A stretch of DNA of 64,000 bases from Sphingorhabdus rigui. Lineage in GTDB: Bacteria > Pseudomonadota > Alphaproteobacteria > Sphingomonadales > Sphingomonadaceae. The DNA lies in NCBI RefSeq assembly GCF_014196595.1, contig NZ_JACIEA010000001.1:560845-624844 (forward strand). The letters are read 5' to 3'. Below are positions 8,668 to 43,194 of this stretch, piece by piece (position 1 is the first letter of the stretch; every line of letters begins with the position of its first letter). The notes below the pieces were generated by a model. It was not told where the DNA came from and ran no database searches. It worked only from the letters and a program-made list of their open reading frames with translations. The translations under genes were made by a program, and so were the position numbers.

Positions 8668-9555
8668 ATGTCCGACATCGCACCACTTAGTTTTCAGGAC
8701 CTGATCCTCACCCTCCATGATTATTGGGGCAAGCAAGGCTGCGCGATATTGCAGCCTTATGATATGGAAATGGGTGCCGGTACCTTCCACACCGCGACCA
8801 CTTTGCGCGCGCTTGGCCCTGATCCGTGGAATGCCGCATTTGTGCAGCCGTCGCGCCGCCCGACCGATGGGCGCTATGGCGAAAACCCCAACCGGCTCGG
8901 CGCCTATTATCAGTATCAGGTGATTTTGAAACCAAGCCCGCCGGACCTTCAGGAACTGTATCTGGGCTCGCTCAAGGCCATTGGCATTGATCCGTTGTTG
9001 CACGACATCCGCTTTGTCGAAGACGACTGGGAAAGCCCGACGCTGGGTGCATGGGGCCTTGGCTGGGAAGTCTGGTGTGACGGCATGGAGGTCACGCAGT
9101 TCACCTATTTCCAACAAATGGGCGGGTTTGATTGCAAGCCGGTCTCGGGCGAGTTGACCTATGGTCTGGAACGTCTGGCGATGTACATCCAGAACAAGGA
9201 TAGCATTTTCGACCTCGCGTATAACAATGCCACCGCGGATCGCCCGGCGATTACCTATGGCGATGTTTTCCGCGAAAACGAGCGGCAGATGAGCACCTAT
9301 CATTTTGAGGTTGCCGACACCGACATGCTGTTCGATGCCTTTAAAAAGGCGACTGCGGAGTGCGAAAACTGCCTCGAGCGCAGCCTACCCATTCCCGCTT
9401 ATGAACAGGCGATCAAGGCCAGCCACATCTTCAACATACTTCAGGCGCGCGGCGTGATTTCCGTGCAAGAACGCGCCAGCTATATGGGCCGCGTCCGCGA
9501 CCTCGCCAAAGGCAGCTGCCAGGCATGGATGGAAAAGAACGGATGGACGGCATGA
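8668..9555 (+). CDS. glyQ: Glycyl-tRNA synthetase alpha subunit
   Basis: This 295-residue protein matches the normal length of the catalytic alpha subunit of the bacterial alpha2beta2 glycyl-tRNA synthetase. It opens with [20 protein letters not shown] and contains the class II motifs around [20 protein letters not shown] and [11 protein letters not shown], then [20 protein letters not shown] split across motif 2-3. It charges tRNA-Gly in the cytoplasm together with GlyS. In most relatives glyS follows immediately; here a DUF559 gene has been placed between them, its ATG overlapping the glyQ stop (ATGA at 9552-9555). Confidence 0.97.
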
Positions 9556-10025
9556 TGGCGTCCACACAAAATCCTCCCCGAACCGGGGAGGGGGACCGCG
9601 CGAAGCGGGGTGGAGGGGGGGCTCAGCCCTTGCAACGCCCTGTCGTTTACAGCGCGCGCAAACTCCGCCGTGAAATGACTCTCCCTGAAGTCCTCCTTTG
9701 GGAACAATTGCGTGCTGGTAAGTTGGGCATGAAATTTCGTCGCCAACACCCAATCGGGCCGTACATCGCTGATTTTTATAGCGTGTCGGCAAAATTGGTT
9801 GTCGAGATTGATGGTGAGGCACATGACCGCGGGAACCATCCCCAGCGTGATGCGCTCCGCGACGCCGCCATGCAGGCTGCTGGTTTTAAGGTTCTTCGGA
9901 TTGCTGCCGTTGATGTGCTGAAGGATTTGGACACTGTGCTACAAACCATTTGCGCTTGGACTGATAGCCCCCTCCACCGTGCAAGCACGGTCCCCCTCCC
10001 CGCAGGCGGGGAGGATTTAGCATGA
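9552..10025 (+). CDS. DUF559 endonuclease-like protein in a repeat-flanked cassette
   Basis: This 157-residue protein carries a DUF559 domain, a restriction-endonuclease-like fold related to Vsr mismatch endonucleases. The core runs from about residue 36 ([20 protein letters not shown]) through [16 protein letters not shown] and [11 protein letters not shown] to AAGFKVLRI; the D and E-x-D residues fit the PD-(D/E)xK catalytic pattern. I chose the ATG at 9552, which overlaps the glyQ stop as ATGA; the gene's own stop overlaps the glyS ATG the same way. The N- and C-termini are translations of flanking inverted repeats, low in complexity and unlike usual DUF559 proteins. Its biological role is unknown; mobilisation of the repeats is a hypothesis. 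Confidence 0.85.
9570..9623 (+). repeat. Double-hairpin repeat, left copy flanking the DUF559 gene
   Basis: The element starts AATCCTCCCC, forms an outer hairpin CCTCCCC/GGGGAGG, then an inner hairpin CCGC-GCGAA-GCGG, and ends TGGAGGGGGGCT. It is the inverted counterpart of the copy at 9966-10019 and related to the pair inside glyS. It is entirely inside the DUF559 reading frame and encodes that protein's glycine/arginine-rich N-terminus. Confidence 0.85.
9966..10019 (-). repeat. Double-hairpin repeat, right copy flanking the DUF559 gene
   Basis: Read on the reverse strand, this copy starts AAATCCTCCCC and has the outer hairpin CCTCCCC/GGGGAGG, then the inner hairpin ACCGTGC-TT-GCACGGT and TGGAGGGGGCT, matching the left copy at 9570-9623 except in the inner stem. 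On the + strand its end, GGGGAGGATTTAGC, directly precedes the glyS ATG and therefore supplies the glyS Shine-Dalgarno sequence. Confidence 0.85.
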
Positions 10026-12211
10026 CCGATTTTCTGCTGGAACTTCGTTCTGAAGAAATCCCTGCGCGGATGCAGGTGAAGGCCAAGGAAGATTTGGCGC
10101 GCTTGTTCAACGACGCGCTGGCCAAGGCGGGGCTGGCTGCGGCTTCGGTTGAAACCTTTGCCACGCCGCGCCGCTTGGCGTTGATTGCGACGGGGTTACC
10201 GCTGGCGACAGACGCGGTTTCCGAAGAAACCAAAGGCCCAAAAGTCGGCGCGCCGCCGCAGGCGATGGAGGGTTTCCTTCGCAAAACCGGCCTTACAGAA
10301 GACCAGCTGATAGAACGCGATGGCGTGTATTTCGCGGTCGTAGAAAAGGCAGGGCGTCAGACCGCTGATGTTCTGGCTGAGGCGATTCCTGCGATTATTC
10401 GTGCGTTCCCGTGGCCAAAGTCACAACGCTGGGGCGCGGGGTCGGCTTCGACGGAAAGTCTGCGCTGGGTCCGCCCATTGCAAGGCATCGTCGCGATACT
10501 GGGCGATGATGTCGTGCCATGCGAAATCGAAGGCATCGTCAGCGGCACGGCGACGATGGGACATCGGTTCCACCACAGCGGCCCTGTCACTATTGGTAAC
10601 GCAGGCGACTATGCTGAAAAGCTCCGCAATGCCCATGTCCTCGTCCATTTCTCCGAACGCTGCGCGCTCATTCGCGACGGCGCAAAGGCGGCTGCGGCCG
10701 CCGCAGGGCTGACGTTGGTTGAGGATGAAGGCCTGGTCGTCGAAAATGCCGGGCTGACCGAATGGCCCGTGCCCATGCTTGGCCGTTTCGACCCCGCGTT
10801 TTTGGAAGTGCCGCAAGAAGTCATTCAGCTGACCGCGCGTGTGAACCAGAAATATTTTGTCTGTCACGACAGCGCGGGCAAGCTTGCCAACGCCTTTGTC
10901 TGCACGGCCAACATTGATGCGCATGACGGCGGCGCAGCGATTGTTGCGGGCAATGAAAAGGTGCTCGCCGCGCGCTTGTCCGATGCCAAATTCTTCTGGG
11001 AACAGGACCTGAAGGTTGCGTTGGACGATCAGGCCACGAAGCTTGCGCAGATCACGTTCCACGAAAAATTGGGCAGCGTCGCCGACAAGGTCGAACGCGT
11101 TGCCAAGCTGGCGCGCTGGTTGGTCGAAGAAGGCATTGTCAAATCCTCCCCGGAACGGGGAGGTGGCGCTCGCGAAGCGAGTGACGGAGGGGGGGCTTCG
11201 CCTTCTACGTCACGTGATGCCGCCAACCCCCTCCACCATCCTTCGGATGGTCCCCCTCCCCGTGCCGGGGAGGAATTAGCGGACCAAGCCGAACGCGCGG
11301 CGCGGCTGTGCAAGGCTGACCTCGTCACCGGCATGGTCGGTGAATTTCCCGAATTGCAGGGCCTTATGGGCGGTTACTACGCCCGCGCACAGGGCGAAGC
11401 GGATGCTGTCGCCGACGCGGTCCGCGACCATTACAAGCCAGTCGGGCAGGGCGACGATGTGCCCACCGCGCCGGTCACTGTGGCGGTGAGCTTGGCAGAT
11501 AAGCTTGATACGCTTGTCGGTTTCTTTACGGTCGGCGAAAAACCCACGGGCTCGAAAGATCCGTTTGCGCTTCGTCGTGCTGCTCTTTCCGTCATCCGTC
11601 TCATTACAGAAAATAACTATCGTCTCTCGTTGAAGAGAATGTTTGGGTTGGCATACGCGTTCCCTGCTTTAATTAAACCGTGGCCTGGAAGCAGCCCTAA
11701 CGATGAGCTCCTGAACTTCTTCGCCGACCGCCTCAAAGTCCAACAACGCGAAGCGGGTGTACGGCACGATTTGATTGATGCGGTGTTTAGCCTTGGCGGT
11801 GAGGATGATCTTGTCCGGCTGCTCGCGCGGGTGAACGCATTGCAGGCATATATCACGACAGCCGAAGGCGCGAATTTGTTGGCGGCGTATAAGCGCGCGG
11901 CGAACATATTGAAGGCAGCGGACGGTGTTGACGCCGCTGCACCCGCTCCGGCGGATTTGGTTGCTGAAGAGCGTGCGCTCCTCACCGCGCTCGACACCGC
12001 TGCACCCAATGCCGCGGCCGCCGTCGATGCCGAAGATTTCGAAGGCGCAATGGCGGCGCTTGCCAGCCTGCGCGCGCCCATCGATGCATTTTTTGACGGC
12101 GTGATGGTGAACGACGAAGACCCCGCTAAACGGGCGTTTCGTTTGGGCTTGCTGGCAAGGTTCCGCGATGCGGTTCACCGGGTTGCGGATTTTGCGAAAA
12201 TAGAAGGCTGA
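10022..12211 (+). CDS. glyS: Glycyl-tRNA synthetase beta subunit with an in-frame repeat insertion
   Basis: This is the beta subunit of glycyl-tRNA synthetase, needed for tRNA binding. It opens LLELRSEEIPARM, the family signature, and retains PFALRRAALSVIRLI and the C-terminal anticodon-binding region. At 729 residues it is longer than the roughly 680-690 typical of the family. The excess corresponds to residues about 374-419, encoded by a palindromic repeat pair at 11142-11278 and reading as a Gly/Pro/Ser-rich stretch with no counterpart in the family. The insertion is in frame, with no stop and intact flanks (ADKVERVAKLARWL before, AERAARLCKADLVT after), so the protein is probably functional with an extra surface loop. 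Confidence 0.96.
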   Translation: MTDFLLELRSEEIPARMQVKAKEDLARLFNDALAKAGLAAASVETFATPRRLALIATGLPLATDAVSEETKGPKVGAPPQAMEGFLRKTGLTEDQLIERDGVYFAVVEKAGRQTADVLAEAIPAIIRAFPWPKSQRWGAGSASTESLRWVRPLQGIVAILGDDVVPCEIEGIVSGTATMGHRFHHSGPVTIGNAGDYAEKLRNAHVLVHFSERCALIRDGAKAAAAAAGLTLVEDEGLVVENAGLTEWPVPMLGRFDPAFLEVPQEVIQLTARVNQKYFVCHDSAGKLANAFVCTANIDAHDGGAAIVAGNEKVLAARLSDAKFFWEQDLKVALDDQATKLAQITFHEKLGSVADKVERVAKLARWLVEEGIVKSSPERGGGAREASDGGGASPSTSRDAANPLHHPSDGPPPRAGEELADQAERAARLCKADLVTGMVGEFPELQGLMGGYYARAQGEADAVADAVRDHYKPVGQGDDVPTAPVTVAVSLADKLDTLVGFFTVGEKPTGSKDPFALRRAALSVIRLITENNYRLSLKRMFGLAYAFPALIKPWPGSSPNDELLNFFADRLKVQQREAGVRHDLIDAVFSLGGEDDLVRLLARVNALQAYITTAEGANLLAAYKRAANILKAADGVDAAAPAPADLVAEERALLTALDTAAPNAAAAVDAEDFEGAMAALASLRAPIDAFFDGVMVNDEDPAKRAFRLGLLARFRDAVHRVADFAKIEG
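11142..11278. repeat. Solo inverted pair of the double-hairpin repeat, inside glyS
   Basis: The left copy (11142-11197) starts AATCCTCCCC and has the inner hairpin CGCTCGC-GAA-GCGAGTG. After a spacer of about 27 bp, the right copy (11225-11278) is inverted, with inner hairpin ACCATCC-GAA-GGATGGT and the end TCCTCCCC on the reverse strand. The organisation is that of the DUF559 cassette with the nuclease gene missing. The element adds about 46 codons to glyS without a stop or frameshift. No clear target-site duplication is visible. Confidence 0.85.
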
Positions 12212-43116: not shown

Positions 43117-43194
43117 CGTCACCCTGAACTTGTTTCAGGGTCTTAATTCGACAACGTGCAAAAAGTAAGATGCTGAAACGCGTTCAGCATGACG
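43117..43194. repeat. Inverted pair of palindromic repeats between argC and map
   Basis: The left unit CGTCACCCTGAACTTG continues TTTCAGGG; the right unit (43169-43194) is its inverted variant (CGTCATGCTGAAC on the reverse strand). The spacer is about 26 bp. Placed between convergent genes, the hairpins may also end transcription. Confidence 0.75.

Follow-up and report, generated by a model that had tools for sequence, protein, structure and literature searches.

A DUF559 nuclease gene between inverted double hairpins as a candidate repeat-mobilising unit in Sphingorhabdus rigui and its relatives

The cassette between glyQ and glyS

The window considered here, a stretch of 64,000 nucleotides of Sphingorhabdus rigui (contig NZ_JACIEA010000001.1, positions 560,845 to 624,844, forward strand), carries between glyQ and glyS an open reading frame (ORF) encoding a protein of the family DUF559 (PF04480, E 4.1e-31), a domain of unknown function in Pfam. 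A sequence-only reading of this DNA had described the gene as lying between inverted double-hairpin repeats, with a related gene-less pair of repeats in glyS; the first is confirmed from the sequence together with the PF04480 match, and the second is found at 11141-11278, in frame. In window coordinates, the features are as follows.

8668-9555: glyQ
9550-9555, plus strand: GCATGA, left copy of a candidate 6-bp target duplication
9552-10025, plus strand: DUF559 nuclease ORF, start ATG at 9552 or an alternative upstream at 9525
9569-9620, plus strand: left end unit, with the AAATCCTCCCC palindrome (hairpin 1, 9573-9591), then hairpin 2 with a variable stem (9595-9611), then a G-rich tail
9966-10019, minus strand: right end unit, inverted, with hairpin 2 (9976-9991), the hairpin 1 palindrome (9995-10014) and the GGGGAGGATTT end
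10008-10021, plus strand: Shine-Dalgarno-like GGGGAGG and 7-nt spacer from the right end, ahead of the glyS ATG at 10022 (direct reading)
10020-10025, plus strand: GCATGA, right copy of the candidate 6-bp target duplication
10022-12211: glyS, start ATG at 10022
11141-11278, no strand: gene-less inverted pair (short form) in glyS, palindromes at 11145-11163 and 11255-11273

The DUF559 ORF spans both end units without a break, the domain itself occupying 9651-9953, and its stop overlaps the glyS start (ATGA). Each unit consists of a palindrome CCTCCCC...GGGGAGG, a second hairpin whose stem varies and an inward-facing G-rich tail; the left and right units are mutually inverted and give two hairpins each on folding (z-scores -2.9 and -3.8), and the gene-less pair in glyS folds as single-stranded DNA with a z-score of -6.7. 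The right end of the cassette may serve glyS as a Shine-Dalgarno-like sequence. In the 2.47-Mb genome there are five copies of the exact palindrome CCTCCCC-N3-12-GGGGAGG, four of them inside the window, and the backwards-read version of the pattern has no copy in that genome; these counts, together with the cross-genome flank test given below, rule out a chance or purely local repeat. The other DUF559 gene of the genome, between yqeY and dnaG (L001, G000:C1:1248919; L and G numbers denote loci and genomes), is also bounded by inverted hairpins, of a sequence type unlike that of the window, which is termed A in the following.

Occupation of the glyQ-glyS junction is patchy within the genus. Cassette-free junctions, which the sequence-only reading had proposed to compare, exist and place the insert: the junction is exactly empty in L124, with a glyQ 99% identical, where GCATGA is single, as opposed to flanking the insert on both sides in the window, and the two genes are joined without insert in five more members of the genus (L128, L131-L134). 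The DUF559 cassette is present only in the window and L129, one hairpin is left in L130, and L123, L125, L126 and L127 have a CGTC-type pair at the cassette position together with an A end. At yqeY-dnaG, DUF559 is found in L253, L255, L258 and L268, a single hairpin stands in L254, and in eight loci the junction consists of just 4 nt. The interior site of glyS is insert-free in most relatives read, is occupied by an A pair in L126 as in the window, and holds other hairpin families at the same in-frame position in L123-L125 and L143. At the Sphingobium site, additional sequence adjoins the cassette and no clean boundary is seen, and the best relatives at pntAA-pntAB and sufB-sufC, sought through plasmids for an empty-site comparison, are 66-76% identical. 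Altogether 163 DUF559 loci fall into 114 two-sided contexts.

Several observations accompany these comparisons. In the junctions of L123 and L125-L127, elements of the DUF559 and CGTC systems nest in or replace one another, and L295, from another genus, seemingly holds an A pair at the glyS interior site on direct reading. Cassettes of type B at yqeY-dnaG occur in several genera (L001; its relatives L253-L274; L049, L057, L059, L075 and L076) and do not all fall in the same part of the protein tree, indicating either a hot spot or an old insertion.

Inverted flanks, two size classes and repeat dose

A survey of 149 genomes of the family detected PF04480 in 127, each of which has between one and ten matches. 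For 81 DUF559 genes in 80 family regions (one of 82 loci, with short flanks, was left out), the two 250-nt flanks were searched for their best inverted match, which was compared with 9203 background windows of equal geometry; these regions, as well as 40 regions from the wider phylum, were the best-scoring hits listed and not a random sample. Inverted flanks exceed the 99th percentile in 68/81 and the 99.9th in 55/81 family genes, compared to 30/81 and 13/81 for direct repeats under the same scoring. The ends are of several types, with arms CCTCCCC, CCCCTCCC, CCCTCTCCC and CCTTCTCC, and mostly consist of a palindrome with an inward tail. A second set, of named loci, was collected by protein similarity to DUF559 copies with A-type ends, and 79 of its 80 loci were scored, one being short-flanked; inverted flanks lie above the 99th percentile in 71, and A arms are present on both sides in 38/79 versus 0/3897 background windows. 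Outside the family, the 99th percentile is exceeded in 10/21 genes of other alphaproteobacteria and 11/20 of other proteobacterial classes.

Among named loci, the DUF559 gene of Sphingobium sp. RAC03 has inverted flanks, and at six of seven plasmid loci the flanks score higher than the entire background of the locus concerned. Loci of Novosphingobium sp. THN1, Sinorhizobium meliloti and a Deinococcus are among these six, as is Sphingomonas parapaucimobilis, where L304 passes only narrowly. The inverted flanks of the Methylobacterium aquaticum locus fail to beat the background of their own locus. Beyond Proteobacteria, inverted flanks surround DUF559 in L386, a Chloroflexi metagenome-assembled genome whose contig is possibly misbinned, and in L309 (Deinococcus sp. 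NW-56). That other ORFs are flanked equally well is ruled out by a control on ORF boundaries, in which 57/132 DUF559 genes and 13/1568 other ORFs of the same loci have inverted flanks, the former being a low estimate because the boundaries used often include the repeats. The expectation that these repeats flank DUF559 genes elsewhere above chance was borne out, by a wide margin over background.

Two size classes of repeat pairs are observed. For this and the stem analysis, the first 115 full A units of a list with limited numbers per genome were used. Their 26 neighbours within 1 kb are tail-to-tail in 23 cases, in the same orientation in three and never head-to-head, and the tail-to-tail spans measure either 102-177 nt (16) or 442-484 nt (7), with no span between. 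DUF559 lies inside 7/7 long full-unit pairs fetched (G033 known beforehand), 2/3 long palindrome-only pairs and 0/10 short pairs; the one long-span pair of ten fetched that lacks the gene (L291) proved to be two adjacent short pairs and no cassette. Half-units of types A, B and C in the 80 regions repeat the pattern: 41/52 neighbours are tail-to-tail, 14 of them gene-less at 92-159 nt and 27 with DUF559 at 414-529 nt.

The hairpin structure of the end units is under selection or constraint. The inner stem of hairpin 2 is complete in 108/115 units, compared to a mean of 40.5 and a maximum of 52 in 1000 trials with half-swapped units. In a covariation analysis of 40 distinct 46-nt units, 10 of the 15 pairs counted were dictated by the search pattern, which left five free to vary; both members of a pair are changed in 47 cells versus 11.6 in shuffles, and the covariation score is 0.241 versus 0.075 for shuffled units (0/500 as high) and at most 0.045 with slid partners.

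Repeat number tracks the presence of DUF559, as the sequence-only reading had expected. The numbers of DUF559 genes and A palindromes correlate with a Spearman coefficient of 0.63 (n=149; uncorrected for genome size and phylogeny), and at least 10 A palindromes are found in 55/127 genomes with DUF559 versus 0/22 without, where the maximum is eight. All 43 genomes with at least 20 A palindromes possess DUF559. Full A units occur in 58/127 versus 1/22 genomes, the single DUF559-less one being G135, which is 77% complete. Neither of the two outcomes that would have spoken against the association, DUF559 genes without a link to repeats and equal repeat numbers in relatives lacking the gene, was seen.

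Nuclease copies, repeat types and competing explanations

Solo repeat pairs match one particular nuclease copy. The comparison drew on six solo pairs from each of G053 and G129 (median identity 82%, their flanks 55-56%) and on five DUF559 copies in the former genome and two in the latter. Scored against the 24 ends of these pairs, L480 in G053 reaches 40 and 36 of 40 on its two strands and L482 in G129 reaches 39 and 38, both ends of each cassette being matched, and all other copies (L076, L283, L483 and L484 in G053; L481 in G129) score at most 24; one DUF559 copy pairs with one solo family in both genomes. When repeat type is mapped on the tree of the 68 flanked proteins, 17 changes are needed versus 27.7 after shuffling (0/200 as low), with types B and C clustered. 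DUF559 proteins that are 60-80% identical (76 pairs) have a median repeat similarity of 0.78 versus about 0.4 for more distant pairs, and a Mantel test relating protein identity to repeat similarity gives a weak overall result (0.18; best of 999 permutations 0.17). In part, these tree and similarity signals mean only that ends and gene travel together.

Among 83 DUF559 proteins, E25, E64 and H70 are invariant, and D53 and D66 are present in at least 90%; these acidic and histidine residues presumably represent the EDxHD motif. Fold and sequence place DUF559 nearest a homing endonuclease and Vsr, within the fold of the Vsr/EDxHD superfamily, the absence of a family from the list of structure matches being uninformative.

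The glyQ-glyS insert is probably one copy of a mobile unit that encodes DUF559 and has a non-autonomous short form, similar to REPIN/RAYT systems, in which repetitive extragenic palindromic (REP) sequences are accompanied by a transposase. With comparable confidence, the nuclease is the likely driver of repeat movement, given the RAYT analogy and given that neither a different cargo nor another constant partner turned up. In the proposed course of events, a mobile unit of approximately 440-450 nt, the DUF559 gene between two inverted structured end units, would form hairpins at its ends in single-stranded DNA; the nuclease, of the Vsr/EDxHD fold, would recognise its own end type and cut at or near the end, and the freed unit or a copy would be joined to DNA at a new site, in many cases an operon junction; there the right end could double as a ribosome-binding site. 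Short pairs (roughly 100-180 nt), to which the pair in glyS belongs, would be non-autonomous copies with the same ends, on which DUF559 would act in trans; the cutting and strand chemistry are likewise inferred. Such elements seem to be tolerated in housekeeping operons through supply of a ribosome-binding site or in-frame insertion. The RAYT-like role suggested for DUF559 by the sequence-only reading is favoured by the flank, junction and dose tests; that a nuclease moves the repeats is what we infer from them. The DUF559 nuclease family is, to our knowledge, not known as a transposase, and we know of no transposition elsewhere with a lone nuclease of the DUF559 or GIY-YIG kind as the only enzyme.

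Of the alternatives, the one that survives best, albeit rather unlikely, has the repeats moved by a RAYT/Y1 or an insertion sequence (IS) transposase, with DUF559 as cargo caught between two repeats. Y1 transposases of the RAYT type (PF01797) are matched in 24/149 relatives and are enriched in repeat-rich genomes, with Y1_Tnp in 11/22 genomes with at least 50 A palindromes versus 13/127 others, and therefore a helper role is possible. However, no match is present in the genome of the window, and 29 of the 43 genomes with at least 20 A palindromes also lack one, which disfavours a Y1 transposase as the only mover; moreover, DUF559 is the occupant of every long full-unit pair fetched, several repeat types show the association, and the solo family matches one particular DUF559 copy.

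Quite improbable is homing, in which a free-standing EDxHD-type endonuclease would cut the empty junction and repair would copy in the cassette, the repeats being its borders. Free-standing homing endonucleases do exist, as reported in the available part of PMC3943268, but A-type ends are alike at different sites, the number of contexts is high, proteins at pntAA-pntAB are at a median of 53.5% alike versus 52.6% for the remaining pairs, and homing by itself produces no numerous gene-less pairs. A scan of the window at Rfam gathering thresholds found no intron in it, inteins not being scanned; it returned a tRNA and an ordinary thiamine pyrophosphate riboswitch (RF00059, 28727-28832) and nothing else. 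A host function, with DUF559 as a Vsr-like repair enzyme and the hairpins as terminators or mRNA stabilisers of its gene, is very improbable: the Caulobacter DUF559 protein VsrA is tied to cytosine methylation and DNA damage in the part of the source available (PMC12907096), but the same units stand gene-less, as inverted pairs and even within coding sequence, and copies are patchy within one genus.

A number of observations weigh against a DUF559-driven mobile unit. No movement has been seen, and a universal target duplication was not found, as GCATGA is present at glyQ-glyS and none at the lspA site. Some junctions recur across genera (by motif, pntAA-pntAB in 19/81 and glyQ-glyS in 6/81), which is unexpected from free transposition alone. 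Inverted flanks above the 99th percentile are lacking in 13/81 family and 20/41 other-group DUF559 genes, among named species in E. coli, Photobacterium and N. gonorrhoeae, the last having direct repeats in place of inverted ones (score 87). The 11 half-unit neighbours that are not tail-to-tail comprise six gene-less head-to-head pairs and five in the same orientation, four of which bear DUF559. Type D is scattered on the protein tree, two weaker covariation measures are matched by 29/500 and 7/500 shuffles, and to these are added the Y1_Tnp enrichment and the lack of correction of the dose correlations for genome size or phylogeny.

GIY-YIG nucleases, CGTC repeats and known systems

In the ORF-boundary control, two ORFs other than DUF559 with strong inverted flanks are stand-alone GIY-YIG nucleases between CGTC-type hairpins.

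L060, 13494-13836: stand-alone GIY-YIG ORF with a PF01541 match
L104, 6431-6785: stand-alone GIY-YIG ORF

A protein of the L060 type is matched in 106/149 family genomes. Among loci L392-L467, taken from the better-scoring hits (75 of 76 with complete flanks), inverted CGTC hairpins are present on both sides of the GIY-YIG gene in 52/75 versus 15/2628 background windows (by batch 22/29, 15/20 and 13/20, plus 2/6 named loci, namely N. gonorrhoeae and Azospirillum lipoferum). No GIY-YIG gene (0/75) has a pyrimidine palindrome in both flanks, compared to 130/207 DUF559 genes; conversely, CGTC hairpins on both sides of DUF559 occur in 1/207 and a looser one-sided motif in 26/207, so that DUF559 is ruled out as the partner of CGTC REPs, none of which is present in the cassette of the window. 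The GIY-YIG gene of A. lipoferum lies in sufB-sufC, a junction occupied by DUF559 in S. parapaucimobilis. In S. meliloti and Novosphingobium aromaticivorans, the flanks of the GIY-YIG gene are inverted but do not pass the CGTC test, and Photobacterium and Rhizobium tumorigenes have no inverted flanks there. The window itself holds a gene-less inverted CGTC-type hairpin pair at 43117-43193 (CGTCACCCTGAACTTGTTTCAGGGTC...).

GIY-YIG is the obvious candidate for the mover of CGTC REPs. That two unrelated families of the homing-endonuclease type are at work, DUF559 moving the pyrimidine double-hairpin units and stand-alone GIY-YIG the CGTC REPs, is a proposition we hold to be evenly balanced. If true, each would be the dedicated mover of one large class of palindromic repeats in alphaproteobacteria, and the spread of CGTC REPs would gain a named candidate; if DUF559 moves repeats, an annotated but mute gene family would turn into a class of mobile element. 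A folded, hairpin-ended nuclease element possibly points to a new way of moving bacterial repeats. Among open-access papers judged by title and the start of the abstract, no work on DUF559-associated repeats was found, nor were such repeats found in the open-access literature on repeats in sphingomonads and Caulobacter or on REP-associated transposases. In the part of PMC3733652 available, a dedicated enzyme is described for GTAG REPs, not for CGTC REPs, which are reported there to have no transposase of their own, and the term 'GIY' is absent, the link between GIY-YIG and CGTC REPs not having been searched in other literature.

The system invites comparison with four known ones. With IS elements and their miniature inverted-repeat derivatives (MITEs), it shares a longer gene-bearing and a short form with common terminal inverted repeats, but no consistent target duplication was found here. 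From EDxHD homing endonucleases such as I-Bth0305I and from Vsr, the DUF559 cassette differs by its inverted hairpin borders and its many insertion contexts. CGTC REPs (dRS3 and some RPE) are likewise palindromic units, mostly inverted dimers, frequent in alphaproteobacteria and sometimes located within genes, according to the available part of PMC3733652; DUF559, however, is not their partner, and the genes that they flank are those of stand-alone GIY-YIG nucleases. Closest are the REPIN/RAYT systems (REPtrons; IS200/IS605-like Y1). The enzyme here is DUF559 with its Vsr/EDxHD fold and not an HUH/Y1 transposase (PF01797), and the repeats are pyrimidine-type double hairpins, starting with AAATCCTCCCC in the window, without the GTAG tag, which defines one REP class (PMC3733652, in the part available); the DUF559 system is not a RAYT, because the tests for an HUH/Y1 enzyme and for GTAG both fail. 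What it has in common with REPtrons, as far as these are described in the available part of PMC3116915, is a single enzyme gene flanked by inverted palindromic repeats together with many short inverted doublets of the same repeat, and the same combination of a flanked gene and free inverted doublets is found here.
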